NCBI RefSeq assembly: GCF_000155775.1
Contig: NZ_DS989811.1
Span: forward strand, 254,914-318,913
Origin: Glaciecola sp. HTCC2999
GTDB taxonomy: Bacteria > Pseudomonadota > Gammaproteobacteria > Enterobacterales > Alteromonadaceae
DNA: 64,000 nt
Direction of reading: 5' to 3'
In this document: one piece after another, positions 1-26,700 of the stretch
Layout of the letters: each line of letters starts with the position of its first letter
Numbering within the stretch: the stretch's first letter is position 1
Position numbers and translations under genes: made by a program
Notes under the pieces: model-generated
What the model was told of the DNA's origin: nothing
The model's input: only the letters and a program-made list of their open reading frames with translations
Databases searched by the model: none

Positions 1-735
1 ACAGTACGCGATGTTCCCAGTAAGGGGCGAGTACATAGAAGGCCAGCGTTAACTCATGGTCGCATCGTTCATCTACTATCAGATCTTGAGCTTTCCGCTT
101 TTCTCTTATTCGACTGGCATATGTCAATTTTAGACATACGAGAGCAGTTTCCACTAGACCCCGAAAAAACATTAAACATCGCCCAACGATTGGGAATAAA
201 ACATCCAGCGGTGCGTGGCATAAATCAAGTAATGACAACCGATTTGCTATTAGACACTCTTCAATCAGGAAAAATAGTTCCAATAGCTATATCCGTTAAG
301 TACCGCGAAGAATTAGAAGATGAGCGTGTCATTGAAAAACAAGAATTGGAAAAACGATTTTGGGAGGGGGAAGGTATTGACTGGTATGTGTTCACGGAAA
401 ACGAAGTTCCTGCCACCTTGCTTCGAAACATAAAGTGGCTTGTCCCACATATCCACAGTTTTGATTTAGATAGTAATGACCAACTGAACACCTTTGAAAT
501 TATTAACAACGCAATTCAAATGCACTCTGAAGAAAAAATCTCAATTGTCATGAAAATGTTGGACGAACAGCATCAATGTAAAAAAGGTACATACCTAGCG
601 TATTTCAGGCACCTTTGTGCTCAAACAGCTTTTACATGGAATATGACCGAGGTAAGCCATCGAATATTAAAAACAAGTGATCTGACACCGTCTGAACATT
701 GGATAAACAAGGAGTTTGAATATGTTCATGCCTAA
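1..735 (+). CDS. tnsA: TnsA, Tn7-type endonuclease (5' end missing)
   Basis: TnsA is the restriction-like nuclease that cuts the 5' ends of the element and forms the heteromeric transposase with TnsB. The frame is open from base 1, so the ATG at 121 is internal: the codons before it encode GRVHRRP and HLLSDLE, which match conserved TnsA sequence. The active-site Glu is visible residue 30 (SDLE) and the Asp is residue 81 (MTTD), with the same 51-residue spacing as E63 and D114 in Tn7. The catalytic Lys is residue 100 (SVK). The Gln two residues before that Lys in Tn7 (QVK) is Ser here. By alignment about 33 N-terminal residues lie outside the window. The stop codon overlaps the start of tnsB. 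Confidence 0.93.
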   Translation, partial: TVRDVPSKGRVHRRPALTHGRIVHLLSDLELSAFLLFDWHMSILDIREQFPLDPEKTLNIAQRLGIKHPAVRGINQVMTTDLLLDTLQSGKIVPIAISVKYREELEDERVIEKQELEKRFWEGEGIDWYVFTENEVPATLLRNIKWLVPHIHSFDLDSNDQLNTFEIINNAIQMHSEEKISIVMKMLDEQHQCKKGTYLAYFRHLCAQTAFTWNMTEVSHRILKTSDLTPSEHWINKEFEYVHA

Positions 736-4469: not shown

Positions 4470-4471
4470 AT

Positions 4472-6001: not shown

Positions 6002-6019
6002 CTACTAAACAGTAGTTAA
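5998..6019 (+). other. Perfect hairpin at the end of tnsD
   Basis: TTAACTACT (5998-6006) and AGTAGTTAA (6011-6019) form a 9-bp stem around the loop AAAC, overlapping the tnsD stop codon. No T-run follows, so it may protect the mRNA 3' end rather than act as an intrinsic terminator. Confidence 0.5.
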
Positions 6020-6352
6020 ATGGAAGAGTTCAACCTACTTCGTAAAGTTTTTCACCAGAGCAGATCACCCAATTGAATTTGGCACCAAACGAATTTTTCA
6101 TTGAGCCAATGATTTGCATACTCCGGTTTTAACAGCGCACCAGTTCGGATTAGATAGTGTCCTAATCCAGTTAAGCAAGCGCACATTCCGACTGAAAAAA
6201 CGCAGTTGTTTTTAAGTTAATTCAACAAACAAATTTTCTTTGAGAATGGATCACTCTGAAGAAAAAATTCAAGATTAGATCCACGCATTTGATATGCTTT
6301 TAATCCATATTTTTCTACCATAAGCCATCAAGCAAAAAGCGAGGGGCGGCTT
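6020..6352. other. Non-coding stretch between tnsD and the cargo
   Basis: No convincing gene was found. The stretch contains an inverted repeat GGATTAG/CTAATCC at 6147-6153 and 6162-6168, and ends with the ribosome binding site GAGGGG just before the ORF at 6353. In Tn7 the tnsE gene occupies this place; no trace of it was recognised. Confidence 0.4.
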
Positions 6353-6670
6353 ATGATCACCTCAGTAAGAAATTGGTATATAGTTGCAGTCATGGATGGG
6401 GAACAATTGGTCGGTGAAGTGTTATACGGTACAGTGCATAATGACCAAACTTTTCGTTTTTTCGAAGGGGACTACGTGACAACATCACGGATCGTGTCGA
6501 TGGATGTTAAAGCTCAGCAAGTAATAACTTCCAGTAACTCTTATTATGTCCTTAAGGGAAGTGGCAAACAGGCCACTATCGATTTAGACGATTTCGAACT
6601 TCTTCGGCATGGTTTTTCACCTGAGCAGATCAGGGTTTTAAACAGCTCATCGCCTCTTTTAGCCCATTAG
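6353..6670 (+). CDS. Hypothetical cargo protein, 105 aa
   Basis: The protein is not recognised. It is small and soluble, with no signal peptide or membrane segment, and has alternating hydrophobic stretches (NWYIVAVMDGEQLVGEVLYG, then TTSRIVSMDV) that suggest a beta-rich fold. A strong GAGGGG ribosome binding site lies 7 bases before the ATG, which supports translation. It is the first gene after tnsD and stands alone, with over 300 non-coding bases on each side except for the short minus-strand gene at 6790-6960. Its position just inside the tns block, where many Tn7-like elements carry accessory genes, is the only hint to its role. Confidence 0.6.
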   Translation: MITSVRNWYIVAVMDGEQLVGEVLYGTVHNDQTFRFFEGDYVTTSRIVSMDVKAQQVITSSNSYYVLKGSGKQATIDLDDFELLRHGFSPEQIRVLNSSSPLLAH

Positions 6671-6789
6671 CTTTGGCACCAACCCAAAGGAATCGAAGCG
6701 CCAATTTCAAGAGTTAAACGCCAGATAAAAGATAACCGGCGGCGGCTGATTTATAACAGGCTGATTTGTAGTAGTTTTACTGATTAGGA

Positions 6790-6960
6790 TTAGATTTTAT
6801 CTGACGGCTGCTTTTCAAGATATAACCAAATCATGGTCAAAATGGTGACTGTCGGTAATGCGACTATCAGTGCTCCTAGTTTATCACTTCGTTTTGCTAG
6901 CTCTGATGCAGCTACTATGACCGTTGCGGTGATCAAATACTTTGTTATTAGCCAACCCAT
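6790..6960 (-). CDS. Short DUF3147-like membrane protein (56 aa, possibly truncated)
   Basis: The minus strand encodes MGWLITKYLITATVIVAASE, then LAKRSDKLGALIVALP, a second hydrophobic segment ending MIWLYLEK, and a stop. GAGG lies 7 bases before the ATG. The sequence resembles the first two membrane helices of DUF3147-type proteins, which as remembered are roughly twice this length; after the stop, all further reading is interrupted by several stop codons. It is either a decayed gene or a genuinely short form. It is divergent from the repressor gene at 7045 and shares its upstream palindrome, so it may be controlled by the same repressor. Confidence 0.55.
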   Translation of the reverse strand: MGWLITKYLITATVIVAASELAKRSDKLGALIVALPTVTILTMIWLYLEKQPSDKI

Positions 6961-6977
6961 ATCATATCCTCAAATGC

Positions 6978-7002
6978 AAAAACCGATTGCCTATCGGTTT
7001 TT
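6978..7002. promoter_or_regulatory. 25-bp palindrome between divergent genes, copy 1
   Basis: AAAAACCGAT (6978-6987) and ATCGGTTTTT (6993-7002) flank the loop TGCCT. The palindrome lies upstream of both divergent genes (6960 minus and 7045 plus), where a terminator would be out of place. It differs from the copy at 8471-8495 at only two central bases. A candidate operator for the BlaI-type repressor; an intrinsic terminator is the alternative. Confidence 0.5.
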
Positions 7003-7044
7003 GTTGTGACAATATAGCCAGCGAATTAAATAGAGTAAAGTGTT

Positions 7045-7428
7045 ATGCAGTTAGGTGAACTAGAAAAGTTAGTGCTTCAACATTTCTGGAATGTCAAAGA
7101 GGCGGACGCAAAGCAAGTACATAAAGTATTGGGGCTTGCGCGTGGTAATTCATTAAATACCATTCAAAGTACGCTTGATAGGCTATTTAAGAAAGAACTA
7201 CTTAAGCGCACTAAACAAGGCCATGCCTATTGTTATTCAGCCAGAGTAGACCGCGAAGGCTTAATCGCTCAGCTTATTTCAAATGTGACCAGTGACTTTG
7301 TAGAAGATGGAGAAAATAGCTTAATAGCCGCTTTTAGTTCCGCTTCAGCACAACTTAATGACGAACAACTCGATACATTAGAAAAAATGATCGAAAAACA
7401 ACGCCAGTTAAGAAAGGAACAGTCTTAA
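7045..7428 (+). CDS. BlaI/MecI/CopY family transcriptional repressor
   Basis: This is a winged-helix repressor of the BlaI/MecI/CopY family. The N-terminal half (1-75) has the family pattern LGELEKLVLQHFW, the helix NSLNTIQSTLDRLFKKELL and the wing residues KRTKQGHAYCYSA. The C-terminal half is helical and probably dimerises. Its 127 residues are normal for the family. The gene is 2 bases from the M56 peptidase gene, the classical repressor/sensor-protease pairing. Because metal-efflux genes rather than a beta-lactamase follow, metal or envelope stress is the more likely signal, as in the CopY branch. The class of ligand is inferred from context only. Confidence 0.88.
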   Translation: MQLGELEKLVLQHFWNVKEADAKQVHKVLGLARGNSLNTIQSTLDRLFKKELLKRTKQGHAYCYSARVDREGLIAQLISNVTSDFVEDGENSLIAAFSSASAQLNDEQLDTLEKMIEKQRQLRKEQS

Positions 7429-7430
7429 TT

Positions 7431-8420
7431 ATGTTAGTTGGAGATATGGCAATCGCTCTAAACTTGCTCAGTGTTGCAGTGCTTGCATTTGTGATCGGTA
7501 TTGCAAGTGTAGCTGTCGTATCTCGTTTTGTGTTGTTCAGACTCAATCAAGTCAGTTTTAATAGTCAAAAATTTATATTGTGGTCACTTGTCAGTGCGCC
7601 TTGGTGGATAGCACTTTCTAGTATCGGTTACTTTATGCCTTACTCTTTAGGGTTTGATAAAGTTTTCAACATAAGCTGGTTCGAAGATTTTGCCCATTGG
7701 CACCATATCGATATTTTCAGTTTTTCAAGTTGGCACGCGTTAACATTACTTTTAGGTTTAATCTATTTAGTATGGCGCGTAATTCGGACTATCTTTGCTA
7801 GAACCAAACAGTCCATCGCATTATCGAGTTTACTAAGCTTTACTGATGCAAAAAACGCTAAAACGACTAATGGTAATCAATATTTCTTGATGCCTGTTAA
7901 AGTACCTGTTGCTTTTACTACAGGCTTTATATCGCCCAAGATCTATGTATCAACCGGACTAAAAACCCAAGTTAGCGATGAACAACTCAATATCATCGTT
8001 AATCATGAACTTGCCCATGTAACAGCAAAAGATCCCTTATTTAAAGTACTATTCACGGCACTTGCCAACTTCTATCCGTCAGGTATAAAACAAAGCTTAA
8101 TCGAGCAATATGTCTTAATGACGGAGAAGATAGCCGATAATGAGGTCACAAAAACATATGACAACCTTGATGTCGCACAGACATTGATTGATGTCGCTAG
8201 ACTTCAAAAAGCACTTCCTACGGATTACGATCAGGCGTCTGCTAGCTACTTCGGACATGATCACACGAGTCTTCGTGTTGAGCGGTTATTAAATCCAATC
8301 AATAAACCGTCACTTACACCTATCATCATTGCGCTAGCACTATTGGCAACTATGCCAGTACTAGCGGCATCCACTGTTGATAGTTTTCATCACTTTATTG
8401 AAACTTTTTTCATCCATTAA
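7431..8420 (+). CDS. M56 family membrane metallopeptidase (BlaR1/MecR1-like, no sensor domain)
   Basis: BlaR1-type proteins are membrane zinc proteases that inactivate the partner repressor when a signal is sensed. The zinc motif HELAH is at residues 192-196, followed by AKDP as in family M56. Hydrophobic segments lie near residues 5-30, 42-65, 95-115 and 285-305. The 329 residues stop soon after the last membrane segment, so the extracellular penicillin-binding domain of true BlaR1 is absent. It starts 2 bases after the repressor gene. It probably senses metal or envelope stress and cleaves the BlaI-type partner; the substrate is inferred from gene pairing. ATG 7446 is an alternative start. 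Confidence 0.85.
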   Translation: MLVGDMAIALNLLSVAVLAFVIGIASVAVVSRFVLFRLNQVSFNSQKFILWSLVSAPWWIALSSIGYFMPYSLGFDKVFNISWFEDFAHWHHIDIFSFSSWHALTLLLGLIYLVWRVIRTIFARTKQSIALSSLLSFTDAKNAKTTNGNQYFLMPVKVPVAFTTGFISPKIYVSTGLKTQVSDEQLNIIVNHELAHVTAKDPLFKVLFTALANFYPSGIKQSLIEQYVLMTEKIADNEVTKTYDNLDVAQTLIDVARLQKALPTDYDQASASYFGHDHTSLRVERLLNPINKPSLTPIIIALALLATMPVLAASTVDSFHHFIETFFIH

Positions 8421-8433
8421 TTAAGGATATGGA

Positions 8434-9765
8434 ATGAGATTTAACCCATATAACAGTAAAAGTAACGAAAAAAAACCGATAGGCTATCGGTTTTTGGCTG
8501 TTGGAATAGCTGTAACAACGGGGCTTGGTTTAACAATGCCTACCCCTTCTTTGGCTAATTCGCAAACTCAGCAGCAAATACAGTCATCACATCAGATTAT
8601 TAATCTGAGTAAGGCTGTGACCATGACCTTAGAGAGTCATCCTGAACTAAAAGCCTTGGTAGCTAAAGAAGCTGTGTGGCAAGGCAATATCGAGCAAGCA
8701 GGCATTGGAGAACGTCCTCAGATAGGTTTAATGATCGAGGATGCGTTAGGGACAGGTGAGCATAGTGCGTTAAAAAGTATGCAATCAACCCTCACATATT
8801 CTTGGTTACTTCAACAAGATCAAATTGATGGCAGAGTCAATGCGGCAAAAAGTCAAGCAAGTTCATTAATCGTAGAGCATAAAATAAAAGCACTCGATTT
8901 ATCTGCGGTTGTTGCAAAGCAATTTGTTGAAATCTTGATAAAGCAAGAGCGCTTGAAACTCAATCAATTAGCGGTATCTCAGGCACAGGAAGTGATTGAC
9001 GCGATTGCCAAAAGAGTAAAAGCAGGCAAAAGTTCTAATGTCGAAATGCGCTTGGCTCAAGCTGAGTTGGTTCGAAGAAATCTCGCTGTCGAAGATTTAG
9101 AGCACGAATTAAAAGCCAGCTATTATCAACTGTCATCCTTATGGGGTAAGCCTCAGGCAGAGCTTAAGTTAACGGGAAATTTAATGCTTAAGCCGGAAAT
9201 TCCATCTGTAGAAAGCCAGCTAAACAAGCTTAAGCAAATCCCGCAAATACAGCAGTTCGCTAATGAACAACGTATCGCCCAGTCTCAAATGGAACTTGCA
9301 CGTATTGAAGCCAAACCTCAGTGGCAATTCACTGCTGGACTAAGACGATATGAAACGACCGATGATTTTGGTTTAGTGGCGGGTATCTCTATTCCTTGGG
9401 GAAGTGAAAATAGAAATGCAGGGACAATAGCTGCCTTACGCGCAAAACAAGATGTGCTGGCAAGTCAGCAACAAGCGTTAATGCAGAAACTTGATGCACA
9501 GCTTTATGTGCTATTGCAAGAAATGGCGCATTCTCACCATGTCATTGAAACGATTCAAGCACAAATTATTCCCGAACTAGAAACCGCATTGACTGAAGCA
9601 GGTCAGGCATTTGATATCGGCAAGCTTAGCTACAACCAGTGGAGTGATATACGTAGAGAGCTACTTAGCGCCCAAAATCAGTTACTTGATGCTTATCAAT
9701 CTTTGCACTTACAACATATTGAAATTCAACGTCTAACTGGCGTGTCCATTAGTGATAGCGAGTAG
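8434..9765 (+). CDS. CzcC-like outer membrane efflux factor (TolC family)
   Basis: This is the outer membrane channel of the tripartite RND pump. A signal peptide with the hydrophobic stretch AVGIAVTTGLGL ends at SLANS near residue 42. Two outer-membrane-efflux repeats follow (about 55-240 and 260-435), with the typical long helices rich in Gln and Ala. The length of 443 matches the CzcC group. AAGGA lies before the ATG. The second copy of the 25-bp palindrome falls in codons 13-21. The gene ends just before the adaptor and pump genes, so the three are one operon. Confidence 0.88.
   Translation: MRFNPYNSKSNEKKPIGYRFLAVGIAVTTGLGLTMPTPSLANSQTQQQIQSSHQIINLSKAVTMTLESHPELKALVAKEAVWQGNIEQAGIGERPQIGLMIEDALGTGEHSALKSMQSTLTYSWLLQQDQIDGRVNAAKSQASSLIVEHKIKALDLSAVVAKQFVEILIKQERLKLNQLAVSQAQEVIDAIAKRVKAGKSSNVEMRLAQAELVRRNLAVEDLEHELKASYYQLSSLWGKPQAELKLTGNLMLKPEIPSVESQLNKLKQIPQIQQFANEQRIAQSQMELARIEAKPQWQFTAGLRRYETTDDFGLVAGISIPWGSENRNAGTIAALRAKQDVLASQQQALMQKLDAQLYVLLQEMAHSHHVIETIQAQIIPELETALTEAGQAFDIGKLSYNQWSDIRRELLSAQNQLLDAYQSLHLQHIEIQRLTGVSISDSE
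8471..8495. promoter_or_regulatory. 25-bp palindrome inside the start of the czcC-like gene, copy 2
   Basis: AAAAACCGATAG (8471-8482) and CTATCGGTTTTT (8484-8495) are perfect inverted halves around one G. The site matches the palindrome at 6978-7002 in 23 of 25 positions. It lies 37 bases into the coding region, so it could be a roadblock operator, or a terminator-like attenuator of the pump operon. Confidence 0.5.
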
Positions 9766-9781
9766 AACCGTGAGCAAACTT

Positions 9782-11014
9782 ATGAAAAATAAAAATATCC
9801 TGTCGTCATTGAGCTTGGCGATTCTTATCTCATTAACAGGTGTCGTCGCACCTAATGTTGTTGCATCATCAGCACCTGCGGCTGAGCAAGCTGAACCAGA
9901 GAAAGGTCCACACCGTGGGCGCATGTTACGAGAGGGTGATTTTGCAATTGAACTATCTATTTTTGAAACAGGTGTGCCACCAGAGTTTCGCGTTTGGGCG
10001 ACTAATGGTGGACAGCCGATAGACCCAAAGAAAGTCGATTTAAACGTAAAATTAATTCGCCTAGGCGATGGTACTGATGATATTAACTTCAATGCTCAAG
10101 GTGATTTTCTTCGCGGTGATATGGTGATTTATGAGCCTCACTCTTTTGTTGTAGCCATTGAAGCCACTTATCAGGGTAAAAAGTACAATTGGCGATATGA
10201 CAACTTCGAAGGTCGCACCACAATTGAGCAGGCAGTTGCCGATGCAATGGAAATCAACACTGAAATTGCAGGCCCAGCAACCATTCACCAAACCATACCC
10301 GCTTATGGCAAATTAAGTTTACCTGTGGACGCTAAGCGAAACATTGCTGCCCGTTTTGATGGTGAAATCACCAAGCTGCATGTTAATTACGGAGAAGCAG
10401 TTAAAAAAGGTCAAACACTGTTTACAGTAGAAAGTAATGAAAGTCTTAAACCCTACGTTATCAAAGCTCCAGCTAGCGGTGTCGTTACTCAGTTATTTGC
10501 AAACGCGGGTGAGCAAACGGGTGGCAGAACCTTACTGACCATTACTAATTTCACTCGCCATATTGCCAAATTAGCGGTTTACCCTTCGGACTATGCCAAA
10601 GTGAAACTGGAAACGCCAGTAACACTAAACGTTGAGGGTCATGAGGAACCCCTTGCAGGTAAAGTGTCATTTATTGAGCCTAGCGTGAGAGATGATCAAG
10701 CTCGATTGGTTTGGGTCGAATTAGCTGATGGTCACTTTTCTGAAGGAAGTTTTGTTAAAGCTGACATAGAAGTTGCAACCATTAATGTGCCACTGGCTGT
10801 AAAACGAGTTGGCTTGCAAGGCTTTAGAGACTTTACGGTCGTTTACGCCAAAGTGGGTGAGCAGTATGAAGTTCGTATGCTTGAGTTAGGCCGAGCTGGA
10901 GGCGAATGGATCGAAGTATTGGGTGGCTTAAAAGCGGGAACCGAATACGTGACCGACAATAGCTACATCTTAAAAGCCGACATTGAAAAGTCTGGCGCAT
11001 CACACGATCACTAG
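9782..11014 (+). CDS. CzcB-like RND periplasmic adaptor (HlyD family)
   Basis: This is the adaptor that joins the inner-membrane pump to the outer-membrane channel. A signal peptide (MKNKNILSSLSLAILISLTG, cut near VVASSA) is followed by an N-terminal domain with GPHRGRMLREGDFAIEL and PPEFRVWA, typical of CzcB-type adaptors. Then come the barrel-sandwich hybrid (GEITKLHVNYGEAVKKGQTL and ASGVVTQLFANAGEQ) and the beta-barrel parts. The C-terminus ends SHDH, a possible metal-binding tail. ATG 9782 is chosen because the signal peptide starts there; GTG codons at 9752 and 9770 are open alternatives. It lies between the channel and pump genes of one operon. Confidence 0.9.
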   Translation: MKNKNILSSLSLAILISLTGVVAPNVVASSAPAAEQAEPEKGPHRGRMLREGDFAIELSIFETGVPPEFRVWATNGGQPIDPKKVDLNVKLIRLGDGTDDINFNAQGDFLRGDMVIYEPHSFVVAIEATYQGKKYNWRYDNFEGRTTIEQAVADAMEINTEIAGPATIHQTIPAYGKLSLPVDAKRNIAARFDGEITKLHVNYGEAVKKGQTLFTVESNESLKPYVIKAPASGVVTQLFANAGEQTGGRTLLTITNFTRHIAKLAVYPSDYAKVKLETPVTLNVEGHEEPLAGKVSFIEPSVRDDQARLVWVELADGHFSEGSFVKADIEVATINVPLAVKRVGLQGFRDFTVVYAKVGEQYEVRMLELGRAGGEWIEVLGGLKAGTEYVTDNSYILKADIEKSGASHDH

Positions 11015-11024
11015 GAGCGTAACA

Positions 11025-14000
11025 ATGTTGGAGTCAATTTTACGCTTTTCAATAAAGCGCAAATTCCTTGTGATGGTGATGGTGTTAGCTGTGTCAGGTC
11101 TGGGTATTTGGAATTTTACCAAACTACCGATTGATGCAGTGCCCGATATCACCAATGTGCAAGTCATGATCAATACCGAAGCGGCTGGTTTTACTCCGTT
11201 AGAAGTTGAGCAAAGGGTAACTTTTCCGTTAGAAACTGCTTTGTCGGGTTTACCGGGGTTAACCTATACCCGCTCAGTTTCTCGTTATGGCTTGTCTCAA
11301 GTAGTTGCAATATTCAGTGACGATACTGATGTCTATTTTGCTCGTCAGCTTGTTAATGAGCGTTTATCAGCGGCACGCGCTGAGTTACCGCAGGGCTTAG
11401 AGCCTCAACTTGGGCCAATTGCGACAGGTCTTGGTGAAATCTTCATGTTCACCGTTGATGCCGAGCCTGACGCGACACATGCTGATGGTACGCCAATTAC
11501 CCCAATGGATTTACGAACCGTACATGACTGGACCATAAGACCACAATTAATGCGAGTGCCGGGTGTAGTAGAAGTGAACCCGATAGGCGGATTTGAGCGT
11601 GAAATATTAGTCGCTTTCAAACCTGAAAAGTTACTTGCTTTTGGGCTGTCACAAGCCGATGTGGTTGATGCAATTTCGAAAAACAATCAAAATCAAGGCG
11701 CAGGCTTTATTGAGCAAAATGGCGCACAGTGGCTGTTAAGACTACCCGGTCAGGTTGCCGACATGGAATCAATTGGTAATATTCCGCTTAAGTCGGTTGA
11801 TGGTTCATCACTTTACATTAAAGACGTAGCCGATATTGAAAATGGCAAAGGGTTAAGAACTGGCGCTGCTACACAAAATGGTCGTGAAGTGGTGATGAGT
11901 ACGGTGTTCATGCTTATTGGTGAAAACAGCCGCACCGTTGCCCATGCCGTGGGAGAAAAGCTCAAGGAAATTAACGCCACTTTACCAGAAGGTATAGTCG
12001 CAACCGCTGTTTATGATCGCACTAAATTAGTAGATAAAACTCTACAAACGGTTCAGCTTAACCTGACCGAAGGGGCGGTTCTGGTAATCGTTGTACTCTT
12101 TGTCTTGCTAGGGAATTTCCGAGCGGCATTTTTAACGGCCTTAGTGATCCCTTTTGCTATGTTAATGACAGTGACAGGTATGGTGCAAACTCGCGTGAGT
12201 GCAAACCTGATGAGCTTAGGTGCGTTAGATTTTGGTTTGTTAGTCGATGGTGCCATTATCATCGTAGAAAATTGTCTTCGCAGGCTAAGTCAGGCGGGAA
12301 ACAATCCTATTCCTTTAAAAGAACGCATGGAATTGGTGTTCGAAGCAACAAAAGAAGTCATACGCCCAGCGCTATTTGGCGTGTTTATTATCACCGCTGT
12401 TTACTTACCCATTTTTGCCTTAGAAGGCGTTGAAGGCAAAATGTTCCACCCAATGGCGATCACCGTGATTATCGCGTTACTTAGCGCTATGGTGTTATCG
12501 GTTACCTTTGTACCAGCTATGGTTGCCTTGTTATTTAAAAAGCCTGTCAAAGAAAAACATAGCCCAATAATTCGTGGTGCTGCGGTTCTTTATAAACCAG
12601 CTTTGAACTGGGTATTAAAAGCCCGTTGGTTAGTGGTAGTTTCCGCAACAGTGTTAGTTGGTTTCTCAGGTTATCAGGCGACTAAGCTAGGTAGTGAATT
12701 TGCGCCTAATCTGGATGAAGGTGATATTGCCATGCACGCGCTGCGAATTCCGGGTACGTCACTGTCTCAAGCAATCGCGCTTCAGGAATCTTTAGAAGAT
12801 AAAATTAAACAAATGCCAGAAGTTGAACGCGTCTTTGCCAAAATAGGCACAGCCGATGTTGCAACTGATGCCGTGCCGCCAAGTGTTGCAGATAACTTTA
12901 TTATCCTCAAACCTCGCGAGTTATGGCCTGAACCTGACAAAACGAAAGTACAAATCGTCGAAGAGTTAGCCGCGCTAGTAGAGCCAATTCCGGGTAACCG
13001 CTATGAGTTTTTACAGCCAATACAAATGCGTTTCAACGAATTATTGGCAGGGGTCAGAGCTGAACTTGCGATAAAAGTGTTTGGTGATGACTTTGATACC
13101 TTGACCACGTTAGGCGATGAAATAGAGGGTGCAATTTCTCAGGTTGAAGGTGCCGTAGATATACAAGTTGAGCAAACCACAGGGTTACCTATGCTTAATC
13201 TTGTACCAAATCGTGAAAAATTGATGCAGTTTGGTATCAGTATTAGCCAAGTACAGTCTCAAGTGGCAACAGCGATGGGCGGTACTGTCGCTGGTAAATT
13301 TTATCAAGGCGATGTTCGCTCTGATATTGTGGTACGCCTTGCAGAATCAAAACGAAATAATATTGATGAACTTCCTTATCTACCGATCAGATTAGCTGAC
13401 GGTCATGCTGTGCCACTTAAAGAACTGGTTGATATTGAGCTTATTTCTGGCGCTAACCAAATTAATCGTGAAAATGGTAAACGCAGAGTGGTGGTAACTG
13501 CCAATGTTCGCGGAAGAGACTTAGGGAGTTTCGTTGGTGATATTAAAACGGTAATTGAAGAAAACGTTGAAGTTCCAGCAGGCTACTGGGTGGAATATGG
13601 CGGCACTTACCAAAAACTACAATCCGCTTCAGATCGTTTAAGTATTGTTGTACCAGTCACCTTAATAATGATTATCGGGTTATTAATCCTTGCGCTTAAC
13701 TCCGTTAAAGATGCCATGATCATCTTTACAGGGGTGCCATTAGCATTAACAGGTGGTATTGCTGCATTGCTGTTGCGTGATATTCCATTTTCAATTTCAG
13801 CAGCTGTTGGCTTTATTGCCTTATCGGGAATCGCCATCCTTAATGGCCTAGTTATGGTGTCGTTCATTAGAGACTTACGTAAAGATGGACTGGCACTTAA
13901 TAAAGCAATATTTGACGGTGCGCTGACTCGTCTTCGCCCTGTGTTAACAACCGCACTAGTCGCATCATTAGGTTTTATCCCAATGGCGTTAAATACAGGC

Positions 14001-14168
14001 ATTGGTTCAGAGGTTCAACGTCCTCTGGCAACAGTGGTCATTGGTGGCATTATTTCGTCAACGATTTTAACCCTGTTTGTCATTCCTGCTTTATACAGAA
14101 TTTTACATAAAGAAAAGGAGTCTATTTTGACTGATGCTGAAATATTGGAGTCACAAGATGCCAAGTAA
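11025..14168 (+). CDS. CzcA-like heavy-metal efflux RND pump (HME-RND)
   Basis: This is a proton-driven inner-membrane pump for divalent metal cations, about 1047 residues with 12 membrane helices and two large periplasmic loops. The TM4 signature reads LDFGLLVDGAIIIVEN, the DFG...DG...EN form of CzcA-type pumps (zinc, cobalt, cadmium, nickel), and not the GAxxDAAIVxxEN form of copper/silver CusA. The N-terminus MLESILRFSIKRKFLV is typical of the family, and AGGAG stands 7 bases before ATG 11025. The end overlaps the HupE-like gene by 11 bases. The exact metal cannot be told from sequence. Confidence 0.92.
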   Translation: MLESILRFSIKRKFLVMVMVLAVSGLGIWNFTKLPIDAVPDITNVQVMINTEAAGFTPLEVEQRVTFPLETALSGLPGLTYTRSVSRYGLSQVVAIFSDDTDVYFARQLVNERLSAARAELPQGLEPQLGPIATGLGEIFMFTVDAEPDATHADGTPITPMDLRTVHDWTIRPQLMRVPGVVEVNPIGGFEREILVAFKPEKLLAFGLSQADVVDAISKNNQNQGAGFIEQNGAQWLLRLPGQVADMESIGNIPLKSVDGSSLYIKDVADIENGKGLRTGAATQNGREVVMSTVFMLIGENSRTVAHAVGEKLKEINATLPEGIVATAVYDRTKLVDKTLQTVQLNLTEGAVLVIVVLFVLLGNFRAAFLTALVIPFAMLMTVTGMVQTRVSANLMSLGALDFGLLVDGAIIIVENCLRRLSQAGNNPIPLKERMELVFEATKEVIRPALFGVFIITAVYLPIFALEGVEGKMFHPMAITVIIALLSAMVLSVTFVPAMVALLFKKPVKEKHSPIIRGAAVLYKPALNWVLKARWLVVVSATVLVGFSGYQATKLGSEFAPNLDEGDIAMHALRIPGTSLSQAIALQESLEDKIKQMPEVERVFAKIGTADVATDAVPPSVADNFIILKPRELWPEPDKTKVQIVEELAALVEPIPGNRYEFLQPIQMRFNELLAGVRAELAIKVFGDDFDTLTTLGDEIEGAISQVEGAVDIQVEQTTGLPMLNLVPNREKLMQFGISISQVQSQVATAMGGTVAGKFYQGDVRSDIVVRLAESKRNNIDELPYLPIRLADGHAVPLKELVDIELISGANQINRENGKRRVVVTANVRGRDLGSFVGDIKTVIEENVEVPAGYWVEYGGTYQKLQSASDRLSIVVPVTLIMIIGLLILALNSVKDAMIIFTGVPLALTGGIAALLLRDIPFSISAAVGFIALSGIAILNGLVMVSFIRDLRKDGLALNKAIFDGALTRLRPVLTTALVASLGFIPMALNTGIGSEVQRPLATVVIGGIISSTILTLFVIPALYRILHKEKESILTDAEILESQDAK

Positions 14169-14853
14169 CATGATTAAAGTATTGACCTATCTGACGATTG
14201 CGCTGTTAGCGCTTCTCAGTATCGAAGCCTTTGCTCACGGAGTCGATGATAAAACCAGAGCATTTTTAGAGCAAAATAGTGGTGTACAGTTTATCCCGTT
14301 TTTATACATAGGCGCTAAGCATATGATAACGGGCTACGATCACTTGTTGTTTTTAGTCGGTGTTATCTTCTTCCTGTATCGCAGCCGTGACGTACTTTTG
14401 TACGTCACCATGTTTACTATCGGACATAGCACAACATTGCTATTTGGCGTGTTAAGCGATATTCAAGTGAATGCTTATTTAATTGATGCCATTATCGGTT
14501 TTTCCGTAATTTATAAGGGATTCGATAATCTAGGTGGCTTTAAGCGTTGCTTCAATTGGCAACCGAATATGCAATGGGCAGTGCTGATTTTTGGTTTGTT
14601 TCATGGCTTTGGGTTGGCAACAAAATTACAAGAATTCAGTCTTGCTGAAGATGGCCTTGTGACCAACTTAATTGCGTTTAATATTGGTGTCGAGCTTGGT
14701 CAATTCGCGGCACTTGCACTGATACTTATTTTGATAAATGCATGGCGGAAGTTGCCGTCATTCCAACGATTTTCAACAATGACCAACACAGCGTTAATGA
14801 GTGCAGGTGTAATGCTAATGGGCTTACAACTCACTGGTTATTTCACCCTTTAA
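14158..14853 (+). CDS. HupE/UreJ family membrane protein
   Basis: This is a polytopic membrane protein of the HupE/UreJ type, a family that includes nickel/cobalt permeases. After a signal-like N-terminus ending IEAFAHG, the motif HMITGYDHLLFLVGVIFFLY and the later FGLFHGFGLA are characteristic, and about six membrane helices follow. ATG 14158 is chosen because TTGGAG lies 8 bases upstream and it overlaps the end of the pump gene, indicating coupling. An ATG at 14134 is also in frame. In this operon it probably moves or buffers the same cation handled by the pump; the direction of transport is unknown. Confidence 0.85.
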   Translation: MPSNMIKVLTYLTIALLALLSIEAFAHGVDDKTRAFLEQNSGVQFIPFLYIGAKHMITGYDHLLFLVGVIFFLYRSRDVLLYVTMFTIGHSTTLLFGVLSDIQVNAYLIDAIIGFSVIYKGFDNLGGFKRCFNWQPNMQWAVLIFGLFHGFGLATKLQEFSLAEDGLVTNLIAFNIGVELGQFAALALILILINAWRKLPSFQRFSTMTNTALMSAGVMLMGLQLTGYFTL

Positions 14854-14888
14854 TTTATTAAAGAATATAGAAAGTAAAAGAGAATTTT

Positions 14889-15413
14889 ATGCAACATACA
14901 GTTAGTACCCAAACACTTATTAAAGCGAGTATCTCAGCGGTCGTTGTCGCGGCTATTGCACTGGTTACCTTTATCTTACCAGCAGAGTACAACATCGATC
15001 CGACAGGTATTGGCAACAAGCTAGGTTTAACAGCACTTGCACAAGCGGCTGAAGTGGAAACGACGTCATTAGAGACAACTAAAGGCACCGATGAATTTCA
15101 AACAATAGAAGTGATCGTCCCTGCGGAACGCGGCATTGAATATAAATTCTATATGAAGCAGCATGAAAAAATGACCTATGAATGGCTTACTGATGGTGCT
15201 TCATTGTATTTCGATTTACATGGTGAGCCAGAAGGCGACACAACGGGATATTTTGAAAGTTACTCCATTGCTACAATTAATGAAATGAAAGGCAGCTATA
15301 CCACGCCATTTGCTGGCTCTCATGGTTGGTATTGGAAAAACAAATCAGATAAGCCAGTTTCGATACAGCTACTGGTCAAAGGGCAATATGAAGTTATCGG
15401 CCTTAAAAAATAA
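14889..15413 (+). CDS. Membrane-anchored periplasmic protein linked to metal RND pumps
   Basis: The protein of 174 residues has one N-terminal membrane anchor (LIKASISAVVVAAIALVTFIL) and a periplasmic domain (about 70-174) rich in aromatic and acidic residues (KFYMKQHEKMTYEW, GSHGWYWKNKSDKPVSIQL). Similar 'transmembrane anchor' proteins are found next to czc-type operons, and no enzymatic motif is visible. It lies 35 bases after the HupE-like gene and before a small periplasmic protein, so it belongs to the same unit. A role in metal sensing or pump accessory function is inferred from context only. Confidence 0.7.
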   Translation: MQHTVSTQTLIKASISAVVVAAIALVTFILPAEYNIDPTGIGNKLGLTALAQAAEVETTSLETTKGTDEFQTIEVIVPAERGIEYKFYMKQHEKMTYEWLTDGASLYFDLHGEPEGDTTGYFESYSIATINEMKGSYTTPFAGSHGWYWKNKSDKPVSIQLLVKGQYEVIGLKK

Positions 15414-15454
15414 CGAATTTAACTTTACGAATTTCATACAAAATGGAGACTAAA

Positions 15455-15787
15455 ATGAACAAACTAATATCAATCGTTGCACTTTGCGGTGCCTTGCTTA
15501 CTGCTAATGTACAGGCACATAGCGATCATGGGGCTATCAGCGGTCAAAAAGCTGTAAGTATCGCTGCAACACATATTCAAAAGATGACATTTAAAGACGC
15601 GGGTTTTGACGTTGGTAAGTTAGATGAGTCATGGAAAAACATTGATAAATCGCAACTTTCGATTGCTAGCGTTGAGGACAATTTCTACGTAGTAAGTGCA
15701 TCTAATTCTAACAATCAAGGTAAGCTTTACTTCCAAATTGCAAAGAATGGTCGTGTTATGGCTGTTAAAGATAAAAACGACTTTTAA
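15455..15787 (+). CDS. Small periplasmic protein (DUF6488/PepSY-like)
   Basis: A signal peptide (MNKLISIVALCGALLTANVQAHS) leads into a mature domain of about 90 residues. Its pattern is PepSY-like: GQKAVSIAATHIQKM, a central DESWKN, then YVVSASNSNNQGKLYFQIAKNGRV. The mature start AHSDHGA is His-rich and could bind metal. GGAG at 15446-15449 fits ATG 15455 better than the upstream ATG at 15443. This is the last cargo gene before the left end of the transposon and is followed by a terminator-like hairpin. The function is unknown. Confidence 0.7.
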   Translation: MNKLISIVALCGALLTANVQAHSDHGAISGQKAVSIAATHIQKMTFKDAGFDVGKLDESWKNIDKSQLSIASVEDNFYVVSASNSNNQGKLYFQIAKNGRVMAVKDKNDF

Positions 15788-15798
15788 CAAAATAAGAA

Positions 15799-15827
15799 GG
15801 CACCTTTTGATAGAAGCAAGAGGTGTC
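15799..15827 (+). terminator. Hairpin terminator after the metal-efflux operon
   Basis: GGCACCTTTTG (15799-15809) pairs with CAAGAGGTGTC (15817-15827) with two G-U pairs, and ACTTTTGTT follows shortly after. It ends the cargo operon before the transposon end. Confidence 0.55.
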
Positions 15828-15934
15828 TATGACTTTTGTTCTATTATCGTTAACAAGAATTTGGAAAGTGGGACAGCAGCTAAGCCTTTAATATAAAAGA
15901 CTTACGAAGCAAATTGAAATTTACCCAGTATTAT

Positions 15935-15956
15935 AGTATGATAGTTTTTTGTTATG
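15935..15956 (+). repeat. TnsB-binding-like end site, innermost (L3)
   Basis: This 22-bp repeat starts AGTATGATAG and continues TTTTTTGTTATG. It shares AGTATGATnnTTT with the sites at 15991 and 16059. Tn7's left end also carries three spaced TnsB sites. Confidence 0.7.
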
Positions 15957-15990
15957 CCTTTGCAGCATAATTTACGATAATAGAATATAA

Positions 15991-16012
15991 AGTATGATAC
16001 TTTGATAATATG
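15991..16012 (+). repeat. TnsB-binding-like end site, middle (L2)
   Basis: This 22-bp repeat starts AGTATGATAC and continues TTTGATAATATG. It lies 56 bp after the first copy and 68 bp before the outermost one. Confidence 0.72.
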
Positions 16013-16058
16013 TTGTTTATTTCAATTCTAAATAAATCAATAAGTTAAGATGTATCTG

Positions 16059-16085
16059 AGTATGATGCTTTATTGTAAATTTACA
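16059..16085 (+). repeat. Outermost TnsB site and left terminus of the transposon
   Basis: The repeat AGTATGATGCTTTATTGT is followed by the terminal bases ending TTTACA. On the opposite strand this reads TGTAAATT then TACAATAAAGC, matching the layout of a Tn7 tip (TGT, five bases, GACAATAAAG). The transposon edge is placed at 16085. Confidence 0.78.
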
Positions 16086-16155
16086 AATTATCCTTAAAAT
16101 ACAAGGTGTTAGTAACCTCTCAATTCTCAGAATTGTCTTTGATTATTAAACATTA

Positions 16156-17886
16156 CTAATGGGTCAGCCATCGTTGCTCAAATACTTCAGCAGTAGTTGG
16201 CTTCGAGTAAAAGTAGCCTTGGATCATGTCAATATTGACACCAAAACATGCGTCTAATTGGCTCTGTGTTTCTATCCCTTCCGCTATAATAGGTAAATTA
16301 AGCGTGTTTAACATCTTACTTACAGCATAAAATAATTTTTCGTCATCTGTAGCGATGGTATCAATAATAGATTTATCAATTTTGATGGTTGAAAAGATGG
16401 GGTTACATAGCTGTGCAATTGATGCGTAGCCGGTCCCGAAATCATCCAGTACAATTTTATATCCAGCATTAGACAGATCTGTCAGTATAGAGTTGGTCTT
16501 TTCATCATCTAGCTGGAGAGATTCTGTGATCTCTAACTTTATATGTTTGGGTAAAACATCATACTTGGTCGCTATCCTATTAAATCTCTCTAAAATATCT
16601 ACACATTTAAGTTGTGCTGGAGAGAGATTAACTGAAATAGCAAAATCATCATCAACAGTGTTGGTCGATCGCCATAAGGATAATTGTCGGCAAACCAATT
16701 CAAACACTTGATACCCAATTTGAATTATAAGCCCTGTATCTTCTGCAACCTTAATTGTTTCGGGAATACTGATTTGAAAGTGTTGCTCTGGTCCCCAGCG
16801 TAATAAGGCTTCGGCACCTACTAGCTTAGATTGTAGTTGTGATATTACGGGTTGGTAAAAAACACTAAAGTATTTATTTTTTAAGGATTTCTTTACTGCG
16901 TCTTCAATATAAATTTTTCGTAAGAACCGGTGTTGGATATCTTCGTTATAAAATTGACACCGATCTCGTCCCTCATCTTTTGCAATGTATAACGCCATAT
17001 CTGCGTGTTTGTATAATGATTCTGCCGATGAAGCGTCGTCTGGATAAATCGCTATACCGATACTTGAAGTGCATTCAATATTCATGTCAGTCAATGCATA
17101 TGGGGTGTTGAGGGTATTCATAAGACGAGGGACAAGCTGTTCTATCTCATGTTTATTCTTAAGGGTCGATATAATACCAAATTCATCCCCTCCTAGACGG
17201 TATACTTTACATTCTTGTCTAATATTATTCTTTATGCGCAGAGCTGCCGCAGTCAACAACTCATCACCAACAGAATGGCCTAAGGTATCATTGATAGTTT
17301 TAAAATGATCAAGGTCGAGTAATAGTAACGCAAACCCACCACTTACAACGCTATGTTGCTGAAACATTTTTTTCAGGTTTCGGTCAAACATGTAACGATT
17401 TTCTAAACCCGTTAATTGATCTATTTCTGCTAACTCTTTTAGCTGCTGATTACTTTCGACCAAGGCTTGTTTAATTTCGTTGCGCTTACGAGATTGTAAA
17501 ATGACACGGATTAATCGACTACTATTGATCTCTGATTTTAAGATAAAGTCTTGTGCACCGGCAATAAGACATTCAAGAGATATAGTCATATCTTCCATAT
17601 TACTGAGAACAACAATAGGTATATTTATTTCAGTAGATGTATTTAGATAGTTTATAAACTCAAACCCTGTGACTTTTGGCATAAAATAATCGACAAATAT
17701 CATGTCAAATCTTTCATTCTCTAAATACTGTAATGCATCTTCAACATTGGCTGTTGCAACGACTTCAATATTACTATTTGCCGCTTTAAGTTGACGCGTC
17801 AGATTCATCCTATCAATGTCATCATCATCAATATTTAATATCCTTAAACTTAACAAATGCTCATGAATAGAAGATTGCATAATCAC
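16156..17886 (-). CDS. Response regulator with GGDEF and EAL domains
   Basis: This is a cyclic-di-GMP enzyme with three domains. The REC domain (about 10-130) has IDDDD and the phosphoacceptor Asp in FVDYFMP. The GGDEF domain (150-310) carries RLGGDEFG, so the cyclase site looks intact. The EAL domain (325-575) has AEALLRW, NLSPAQL and DDFGTGYAS, so phosphodiesterase activity is also plausible. The start may be GTG 17886, which overlaps the upstream stop, or ATG 17880. It is the last gene of a three-gene operon with a kinase and a single-domain regulator. The transposon has inserted 70 bases beyond its stop. Confidence 0.9.
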   Translation of the reverse strand: MIMQSSIHEHLLSLRILNIDDDDIDRMNLTRQLKAANSNIEVVATANVEDALQYLENERFDMIFVDYFMPKVTGFEFINYLNTSTEINIPIVVLSNMEDMTISLECLIAGAQDFILKSEINSSRLIRVILQSRKRNEIKQALVESNQQLKELAEIDQLTGLENRYMFDRNLKKMFQQHSVVSGGFALLLLDLDHFKTINDTLGHSVGDELLTAAALRIKNNIRQECKVYRLGGDEFGIISTLKNKHEIEQLVPRLMNTLNTPYALTDMNIECTSSIGIAIYPDDASSAESLYKHADMALYIAKDEGRDRCQFYNEDIQHRFLRKIYIEDAVKKSLKNKYFSVFYQPVISQLQSKLVGAEALLRWGPEQHFQISIPETIKVAEDTGLIIQIGYQVFELVCRQLSLWRSTNTVDDDFAISVNLSPAQLKCVDILERFNRIATKYDVLPKHIKLEITESLQLDDEKTNSILTDLSNAGYKIVLDDFGTGYASIAQLCNPIFSTIKIDKSIIDTIATDDEKLFYAVSKMLNTLNLPIIAEGIETQSQLDACFGVNIDMIQGYFYSKPTTAEVFEQRWLTH

Positions 17887-23733: not shown

Positions 23734-26700
23734 ATGAAAAACAGAATGACAAATATAACAAGATTTGGTGCAGTGCTATCTGTACTCACGTTAGCCGCTT
23801 GTGGCGGTGGAACGGAAACGAAGACTGACCTTAATGCAGTCAATCCAACCGTGCCAGTAGATGATTGGCGTCTGGTATGGAGTGATGAATTTGATGGAAC
23901 AGCTATTAATGCAAATAATTGGACGCATGAAGTCAATTGTGAAGGTGGCGGTAATAATGAGAGACAGTGTTACACCGATACCGCAGAAAATTCATTTGTA
24001 AGCGATGGCACACTTAAAATTGTAGCTAAACCAGCTGCGGAAGGTGCTGAACAGCCTTATACCTCTGCTCGCATGACGACACAAAATAAAGTCGATATTC
24101 AATACGGCCGTATTGAAATGAGAGCTAAATTACCTAAAGGTCAAGGTTCTTGGCCGGCATTTTGGATGATGCCTACTGATTCTGTATATGGTGGATGGCC
24201 GAAGTCTGGCGAAATCGACATTATGGAAGCAGTCAACCTAGGTACTTTACGTGCTGATGGTACCGAAGAAACTAATATTTACGGTACTATTCATTATGGT
24301 AAAGATGGTGCGGAATCAGGGCAGTCGCATGATCCAGGTATGAACCCTGGTGATGATTTTCATACCTATGCTATCGAGTGGCAAGAAGGTGAGATCCGTT
24401 GGTACATGAATGATGTTCTTTATGCGACGCAACGTCAATCTCAATTAAAATCAAACGGTAGCGGTTTATCTCATCGAGGTTGGTACGCGAAACTGTACGA
24501 TGTTGCTACTGGCCAATTAGAGACTGATTACAGCAGTGCACCATTTGACCAAGATTTTTACATGATCCTCAACTTAGCTATTGGTGGAGATTGGGCTGAA
24601 AATGTTAATGAAGGTGGTATCGACGCCGATGCATTTTCTGATGGTCAAACACTAGAAGTTGATTATGTTCGTGTTTATAAATGTACGGCCGATTCAATAA
24701 CTGGTAGAGGTTGTGATACTGTTGCTCAAGGTTATGACACCCTAGTTGAAGACGGTGGTTTATTAGTACCAGGTACGGCGCCAGCACCATCTCTTGATGC
24801 AGGTGCACCAAATCCAATTACTATCTTTGATGATACTGTAAATGTCAATTGGGTTGCATGGGAAGGTAGAGATAGCCCTGTCAGTCCTATTCCAGAGTTA
24901 GTTGCTGATGATGCTGACCGTGGTAATGTCTATGAGTTTGCTGTTCAAAATGGCAATGAAGGTGCGGTGTTTGGTTTTATCACTCGTTCAGCATTCTTAT
25001 CAGCAGATCCAACTTCACCTTCGCGTCCTGCTCCGCATAATGCTTTAGGTATGATTGAAAGTGGATATATTACATTTGATGTAAAAGTGACAACCGCGCC
25101 CTCTAATCCTGATGCTGTTTGGATGTTTAAAACTGAAGCTGATGATAGAAATGGTGGAGAATGGGCTACACCATTAACTGATTTTGGTGATGCACCCGTC
25201 GTAGGTCAATGGACAACTTACGAGGTACCATTACAAGCTATTTCAGATGCAGGCGTAGATATTTCTTTATTAGACGTTATCATGGTTTTCCCTGAGTGGG
25301 GCAAAGGAGAAGGTTCTGTATTCCGTCTGGATAATGTAGCAATCTTAAATGGAGACGAAGTAACTGGCACTCCTGATGTAGTTTATGCTCCTGCAGAATT
25401 TACTGAAGCGTTTGGCGGTGCGACGATATCTGAAAATACATATTTGTATCCAACTGGAGCAGAAGTGTGGGGTGGATTTGCGAACTTAAATGAAGATATC
25501 TATCCAATGTCCTTCCCGAATGGTGGTTCTGTATCATTTAAAGCTTCTATCCCGGGTGACGGAGCTGATGTTGATGTTCGTTTTGTATTTGAAAAAATGC
25601 CACATCCAGATGTTGATCCAACATTTGGTACCGACGTGGTTACTGTTACAGGTGCAACTGAAGCAATTTATACATTAACTATTCCTGCACAAGACGCAGC
25701 TAATACTTACAGTTCATTCTTGTTGTATTTAAATACCAAAGACTCACCTGTCACTATTACTGAGGTAGTTGTAACGCAAACTGGTACAACAGGAGCAGGC
25801 GTGCCTGATACTGTTTATGATCCTGCAGCATTTACCGAAGCATTTGGTGGCGCGGTCGCTGATACAGTAACTAATACTTATTTGTATCCTACTGGAGCTG
25901 AAGTATGGGGTGGTTTTGCAAACTTAAATGACACAATCTACCCGATGGCGTTCCCGAATGGTGGATCTGTAACATTCAATGCATCTATTCCAGGTGATGG
26001 TAGTGATGTGGATGTTCGTTTTGTATTTGAAAAGATGCCACATCCAGATGTTGACCCAACATTTGCTACGGATGCAGTCACTGTTTCTGGCGGTACAACA
26101 CAATCATATACAGTTGAATTTGCAGCTCAAGATGCAGCTAATACCTATAGCTCATTCTTGATGTATTTAAATACTAAAGATGCTCCAGTTATCGTATCTG
26201 ATGTAGTTGTTACAGCTACTGGTGTCAGTGGTGGCGGTGTCGCTGCTGATGTAGTTGCTGACCCAGCTACATTTACAGAAGCCTTTGGTGGTGCAGTTGC
26301 AGATACAGCTACGAGTACTTATTTGTATCCAACAGGTGCAGAAGTTTGGGGCGGATTTGCTAACTTAAATGATACTATTTATCCGTTAAGCTTTCCTAAC
26401 GGTGGTAAATTAACCTTTACCGGTGCTATCCCAGGCGCAGGCTCTGATGTTAACGTACGTTTTGTGTTCGAAAACATGCCTCATCCAGATGTTGATCCAA
26501 CATTCGGTACTGATCCGGTAACGGTTTCAGGCAACGCAGAAACAACTTATACAATTGAATTACCAGCGCAAGATGCTGCTAATACATACAGTTCTTTCTT
26601 GTTATACCTGAATGACCGAGACTCACCTGTTATTGTTAAAGATGTAGTTGTTACTCAATATGCAATTGGTGATGTAACATCTCCAAGCACACCTGTTACT

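Follow-up and report, generated by a model that had tools for sequence, protein, structure and literature searches.

The genome of Glaciecola sp. HTCC2999 (G000) contains an ordinary, well-bounded, new Tn7 element of the TnsABCD type, and region 15935-16085 of the window (the whole stretch of 64,000 nucleotides analyzed) is almost certainly its cargo-side (left) end. The element spans 16,323 bp, from window position -237 to 16085; the window is located on contig C7 of the host genome (2.56 Mb, 82% complete) and starts inside tnsA. The right end was retrieved, inverted, just outside the window (-237; L001:18677), where glmS, its TAA stop codon, 25 bases, TGTAAATTGACAATAATGTATCATACT, three sites 20 bp apart, and tnsA follow one another. 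Indeed, TGTAAATTGACAATAATGTATCATACT and the left terminus are equal at 24 of 27 bases. A sequence-only reading of the window had proposed a Tn7-type left end and had suggested a search for an inverted copy of its repeats with a TGT terminus upstream of tnsA, and for an empty site in a related genome; the former was found as TGTAAATTGACAATAATGTATCATACT and the latter as an uninterrupted site in the same-genus genome G009. Features of the Tn7-family TnsABCD elements present here are TGT...ACA termini in inverted orientation, with several TnsB sites that are spread at the left end and close together at the right end, a heteromeric transposase of TnsA and TnsB, an AAA+ regulator TnsC, a selector of the TnsD/TniQ kind, and a position about 20-25 bp beyond glmS, with the tnsA side facing this gene (Table 1).

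Table 1. Coordinates of the features of the G000 element and its left junction in the window
Feature	Position	Strand	Evidence
tnsA, 3' part (full gene L001:18792-19649, 285 aa)	1..735	+	Pfam TnsA N and C domains; Tn7 TnsA 1t0f, E 1e-55
tnsB, DDE transposase, 704 aa	716..2830	+	Tn7 TnsB 7pik, E 4.4e-147
tnsC, AAA+ regulator, 550 aa	2817..4469	+	Tn7 TnsC 8glu, E 4.9e-93; Walker-type segments
tnsD (TniQ/TnsD), target selector, 509 aa	4472..6001	+	Pfam TniQ and TnsD; Tn7 TnsD 8glu, E 1.8e-45
DUF6957 ORF	6353..6670	+	Pfam, barely above cut-off
Metal-efflux cargo	7045..15787	+	Pfam/NCBIfam matches; 6794-15787 block match in G041
Left-end putative TnsB site L3 (inner)	15935..15956	+	Matrix score 26.6
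Left-end putative TnsB site L2 (weak, self-palindromic core AAAGTATGATACTTT)	15991..16012	+	Matrix score 11.1
IHF consensus WATCARNNNNTTR (AATCAATAAGTTA), between L2 and L1	16035..16047	+	Perfect fit; same position in relatives
Left-end putative TnsB site L1 (outermost)	16059..16080	+	Matrix score 21.7
Left terminus ...ACA (TGT read inward)	16083..16085	+	Flush 5-bp duplications at same terminus in relatives
AATT common to both junctions (probable remnant of 5-bp AAATT duplication)	16086..16089	+	Junction comparison
Downstream half of split glmS terminator-like hairpin (...TTAGTAACCTC)	16086..16119	+	G009 alignment, fold

Ends of the element and TnsB sites

The left end carries AGTATGATNNTTT on the plus strand at 15935, 15991, and 16059, as noted in the sequence-only reading. 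These repeats are far above chance, as AGTATGATNNTTT matched four times in the window against a chance mean of 0.05, and none of 100 shuffles reached four matches. The fourth match (16553-16565, minus strand) lies outside the element, within a GGDEF/EAL gene. The left terminus consists of TTTATTGT-AAATTT-ACA and ends at 16085. The earlier placement of ACA at this base holds, whereas the spacers of eight and five bases proposed with it do not, six bases being counted; with eight spacer bases, the exact terminus had no match in the G000 genome itself. In addition, AGTATGAT was not found beyond the site arrays on either strand of window 1 to 15900. Bases 15788-16085 were retrieved from G000 alone among 196 genomes (G000 included), with two others giving short matches of 38-58 bases.

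The scoring of putative TnsB sites relied on a matrix of 20 positions, for which 18 right-end sites from G001, G007, and named relatives served as training set; it contains no G000 sites, the G001 right-end sites being almost equal to the G000 ones. The score of L2, in left-end orientation, comes from a matrix that also includes the G000 right-end sites. A scan of 82.9 kb gave six hits of at least 12, with right-end sites at -229, -209, and -189, two oppositely oriented left-end hits (15934 and 16058), and a hit at 15983 (score 13.9) that represents the middle repeat in the wrong orientation. Simulated sequence gave 1.34 hits of at least 12 per 82.9 kb and a top single score of 25.4 across 50 runs. 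As the simulated best reaches this value, the proof lies in the pattern of positions and orientations and not in any single score. Indeed, the left sites are spaced by 56 and 68 bp and the three right-end sites by 20 bp, and one pair of end arrays only occurs in the 82.9 kb scanned.

Target site and target duplication

Past glmS, the uninterrupted sequence of G009 reads GAGGTTACTAATTTATCCTAAAAATACAGGGTGTTAGTAACCTC. Joined with one AATT removed, the G000 flanks align to it over 66 gapless columns (36 on the glmS side of the junction and 30 beyond it); the G009 DNA analyzed further downstream did not match the downstream flank of G000, the homology of the empty site amounting to about 70 bp. The joined flanks fold into a predicted hairpin of -18.4 kcal/mol (-20.9 kcal/mol for G009), whereas the two halves apart, each with its adjoining transposon sequence, reach only -4.9 and -10.3 kcal/mol. 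From the gapless join and this fold, the insertion in G000 looks like one that splits a putative glmS terminator, i.e. a terminator-like hairpin. Ten same-genus glmS loci, G000 included, were compared. A three-site right end adjoins glmS in G000, G001, and G007 (the contig of the latter ends there), and G006 possesses a right end with a single site after glmS.

The junctions of G000 read AAATT/TGT (right) and ACA/AATTA (left), with AATT alone abutting both ends. Probably, the duplication was the 5-bp AAATT, and its left copy is short of one A, in the run of ACAAAATT, through mutation or assembly error; alternatively, a 4-bp duplication is possible. The AATTA that the sequence-only reading had put forward as target duplication does stand at 16086-16090, but it had to be rejected, as the right junction reads AAATT and, by the letter of that reading's own test, the AATTA copy that should lie beside the other end is absent. 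Perfect flush 5-bp duplications were seen by eye in seven of the eight close relatives of which both ends were seen, namely Colwellia NORP29 (GACCG), C. polaris (GCCGC), V. metschnikovii (GCTGA), V. halioticoli (TCAGG), Endozoicomonas (GATGT), G007 (TAGAA), and G407 (GCTGG). The close relatives were located without a duplication criterion; C. polaris, Endozoicomonas, G006, G007, and G407, five of these eight, have their two ends on different contigs. The remaining one, G006, is without a perfect 5-bp duplication, and its two ends may come from different copies. Similarly, Tn7 in plasmid R721 has GTGCG on both sides. A left-end finder was further applied to 17 of 18 distant elements (G090 left out), up to 60 kb each; perfect 5-bp duplications were found in 11 of the 17, which is a biased count since this finder scores the duplication, and a convincing left end was not found in the other six.

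Transposition genes and cargo

TnsA to TnsD of the element were matched to Tn7 proteins of solved structures, and the tns reading frames are open. The TnsB segments beginning at 273, 362, and 396 hold what we take to be the DDE residues. Similarly, the segments with the active site of TnsA, the zinc residues of TnsD (cysteine/histidine), and the Walker motifs are kept. The element resembles Tn7 of plasmid R721 (NC_002525.1) in its tnsABCD order, homologous proteins, TGT...ACA ends, and close right-end sites, with a TnsB that is 38% identical. Both have three spread left sites, spaced by 56 and 64 bp in Tn7 versus 56 and 68 bp here; four right-end sites are given for Tn7 in PMC13370975, versus three here. 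The use of glmS as target is common to both, according to PMC2918618, which also states the position of Tn7 insertion past glmS. Tn7 of R721 has TnsE, whereas none was seen among the 13 main ORFs of the G000 element (ten scanned with Pfam and the three pump genes with NCBIfam). A genome-wide search with the TnsE model PF18623 gave no match, but control searches were equally without match. As tnsE is missing from most clades according to Benler et al. (PMC8649781), its absence from the G000 element would be usual. Furthermore, no Cas family was found among the 13 main ORFs. The I-F3 CAST Tn6677 (VchCAST) differs by RNA-guided targeting and a distant TnsB (E 3.3e-12), whereas the G000 element has TnsD.

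A palindrome, GAGCTATTC...GAATAGCTC (L001:18754-18782; window -160 to -132), is located between the right-end TnsB array and the start of tnsA. It is shared by eight aligned elements and covaries, with 97.7% of cells paired and two-sided changes in five of 11 pairs. Possibly, it is an operator or an RNA hairpin. As a DNA operator would covary alike and prototype Tn7 has, by eye, a similar palindrome between its right-end sites and tnsA, it is not claimed to be new.

The cargo encodes a BlaI-type repressor, an M56 peptidase, a TolC-like outer membrane factor, a CzcB-like adaptor, a CusA/CzcA RND pump (TIGR00914, 1434 bits), HupE/UreJ, a 174-aa ORF without family, and DUF6488. The pair of BlaI-type repressor and M56 peptidase genes (window 7045-8420) is located directly upstream of the metal RND pump operon, and not of a beta-lactamase. 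The earlier claim that the cargo is mobile has independent support, in that window 6794-15787 (9.0 kb) is 89% identical to a stretch of G041, which belongs to another genus of the family, and this similarity ends at 15787, short of the first TnsB site at 15935. In the 25 kb of G041 examined, no match to tns genes or ends was found, and this genome is not among the 21 of 196 relatives with a TnsB match at E 1e-100; therefore, the cargo block exists outside this element too. Elsewhere in the window, a large lipoprotein-like ORF (23734-28473) has, by eye, a start like that of family-16 glycoside hydrolases and repeated C-terminal modules.

Related elements and alternative readings

Relatives with the same end motifs and a TnsB that is 66-97% identical occur in Colwellia, Endozoicomonas, Vibrio, Terasakiella, and the same genus (L038-L045, G001, G007), and those of five named genomes have the same ends and flush 5-bp duplications. 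The 3' end of glmS precedes the right end in five of six full named loci, as judged by eye; the V. halioticoli locus does not adjoin glmS, and a TnsB of equal identity is present in a plasmid record of V. halioticoli. An order-wide search with the end pattern gave matches in 10 of 394 genomes, with G407 as the only one besides G000 to have both ends. Locus L088 (G095) contained two adjacent site-like matches, and the matches in seven other genomes, consisting of a lone core each, look like chance and were discarded.

Some of the loci retrieved are of a different make-up. Genome G001 (G001:C1; L029/L067/L068/L070) carries a sister element at the same glmS site, with a TnsB that is 97% identical, shared tnsABCD genes, and different cargo. 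Its left end gave two weak matrix hits only (11.1 and 10.7) in 80 kb, and with up to three mismatches allowed, the pattern matched the right end alone in this one-contig genome; the G001 element is one-ended and probably a stranded Tn7. Genome G021 (L115, L133, L146) has two candidate left ends, both with GTTAT, at element-oriented positions 20581 and 25967, i.e. 5.4 kb apart, and a tandem insertion at one attTn7 is possible. In G006, in which no TnsB was found at E 1e-100, the single-site right end after glmS (L033:3584-5269; G006:C150) is followed by an ORF that by eye resembles an AFG1-type ATPase, perhaps eukaryotic; this contig may be chimeric or contaminated.

These loci bear on the question whether the G000 element moved as a whole. 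A composite island, with a left and a right end stemming from two insertions at the same attTn7 and 16.3 kb that never were one transposition unit, would account for the imperfect 5-bp duplication of G000, and it would be in line with the attTn7 of G021 having been revisited and with the G001 element sharing tnsABCD without a left end being found. However, the 82.9 kb scanned hold a single pair of end arrays, AATT abuts both termini and removal of one copy restores a gapless empty site, and a single A lost from the left-junction run accounts for the rest, which makes such an island improbable. Far less probable still, to the point of being negligible, is that the repeats belong to the flanking chromosome, as operators or by chance, instead of being transposon ends. 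The fourth AGTATGATNNTTT in the neighbouring gene speaks for the latter reading, but the empty site of G009 contradicts it, as do the inverted partner array beside tnsA and the same ends in related elements.

IHF consensus in the left end

The consensus for integration host factor (IHF), WATCARNNNNTTR, was taken from PMC10201428. It matched nine times in the window, versus 9.55 times expected in shuffles; being common by chance, only its position and recurrence count. A perfect match on the same strand, at -50/-51, was present in six of nine close left ends (G000, Colwellia NORP29, V. halioticoli, V. metschnikovii, Endozoicomonas, and G407) and absent at this position from C. polaris, G006, and G007. 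Some of these ends are near copies by eye (V. metschnikovii with G407, and G006 with G007), so that the independent count is smaller. At the two positions, about 0.0002 matches are expected per end by chance, and the spacer around the consensus has diverged among the relatives, as judged by eye. None of nine close right ends contained the consensus, this set differing from that of the left ends in that G001 and Terasakiella are included; the right ends of G006 and G007 were scanned separately, on a single strand, and had no match either. Among the distant left ends, a perfect consensus at -50 was found in one of 11 (G035), the other ten being without it at that position. In G178, the sister of G035 on a distant TnsB branch, the match at -50 has a single mismatch. 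G185 has a perfect match at -25, which lies inside its TnsB repeat and hence recurs in its right end, besides a match with one mismatch at -59.

The I-F3 CASTs, including Tn6677/VchCAST, share with the G000 element an IHF consensus in the left end, located between L1 and L2, according to PMC10201428 and PMC13370975. The left end of prototype Tn7 lacks the consensus, the best match having two mismatches, which fits the absence of an effect of IHF on prototype Tn7 reported in PMC10201428. In the titles and abstract openings of the full-text literature matches listed, no IHF sites were reported for CRISPR-free Tn7 elements. In G000, genes score above the cut-offs of both the ihfA and the ihfB model. 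A TnsB tree of 21 rows, from which G006 and G407 are left out, gives full support to the close clade. The IHF label requires four changes on this tree, and 78 of 500 shuffles were as low; as this is not significantly fewer than in shuffles, gains and losses cannot be ordered.

The match at 16035-16047 could be a functionless chance match in AT-rich DNA, in view of a frequency in the window that equals that of shuffles and of the absence of the consensus from prototype Tn7 and, at that position, from three of nine close and ten of 11 distant left ends. This is possible but rather doubtful, given the same strand and distance in six of nine close left ends and in the distant G035, the single mismatch in G178, and the low number of matches expected at -50/-51 within a spacer that has otherwise diverged. 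Whether IHF would bend the left end of G000, bringing L1 and L2 together as in I-F3 CASTs, is in our estimate roughly evenly poised. An equally balanced case can be made for a broader reading, in which IHF-assisted folding of the left end would not be restricted to CASTs. Tn7 elements that target glmS and are free of CRISPR, in marine gammaproteobacteria and on a distant TnsB branch, would then carry a site 50 bp inside the left terminus that was gained or lost several times; according to such a history, the bend would help to pair spread left-end TnsB sites but would be replaceable, and prototype Tn7 would represent a lineage doing without. The left-end IHF consensus is a modest novelty and the one point worth an experiment.

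Proposed mechanism and significance

The element is best explained as a 16.3-kb transposon that was inserted at attTn7 by the TnsD pathway. As in the known Tn7 pathway, TnsD would bind the conserved 3' end of glmS and recruit TnsC. TnsA and TnsB would then cut out the element, and its TGT/ACA ends would be joined about 25 bp past the stop codon, with the tnsA side facing glmS. In this process, TnsB would bind the three close sites of the right end and the three spread sites of the left end. In addition, IHF may bend the left end between the outer two TnsB sites, uniting L1 and L2, as in the I-F3 CASTs. The activity of the element and the binding of TnsB and IHF are inferred.

The G000 element represents an exactly bounded member of the Tn7 family, with both ends, the empty site of a relative, and a cargo block that is also present in another genus. 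Furthermore, close relatives with and without the IHF consensus, such as Colwellia NORP29 and C. polaris, which are sisters on the TnsB tree, make a role of IHF in the pairing of unlike ends testable outside CRISPR-associated elements.
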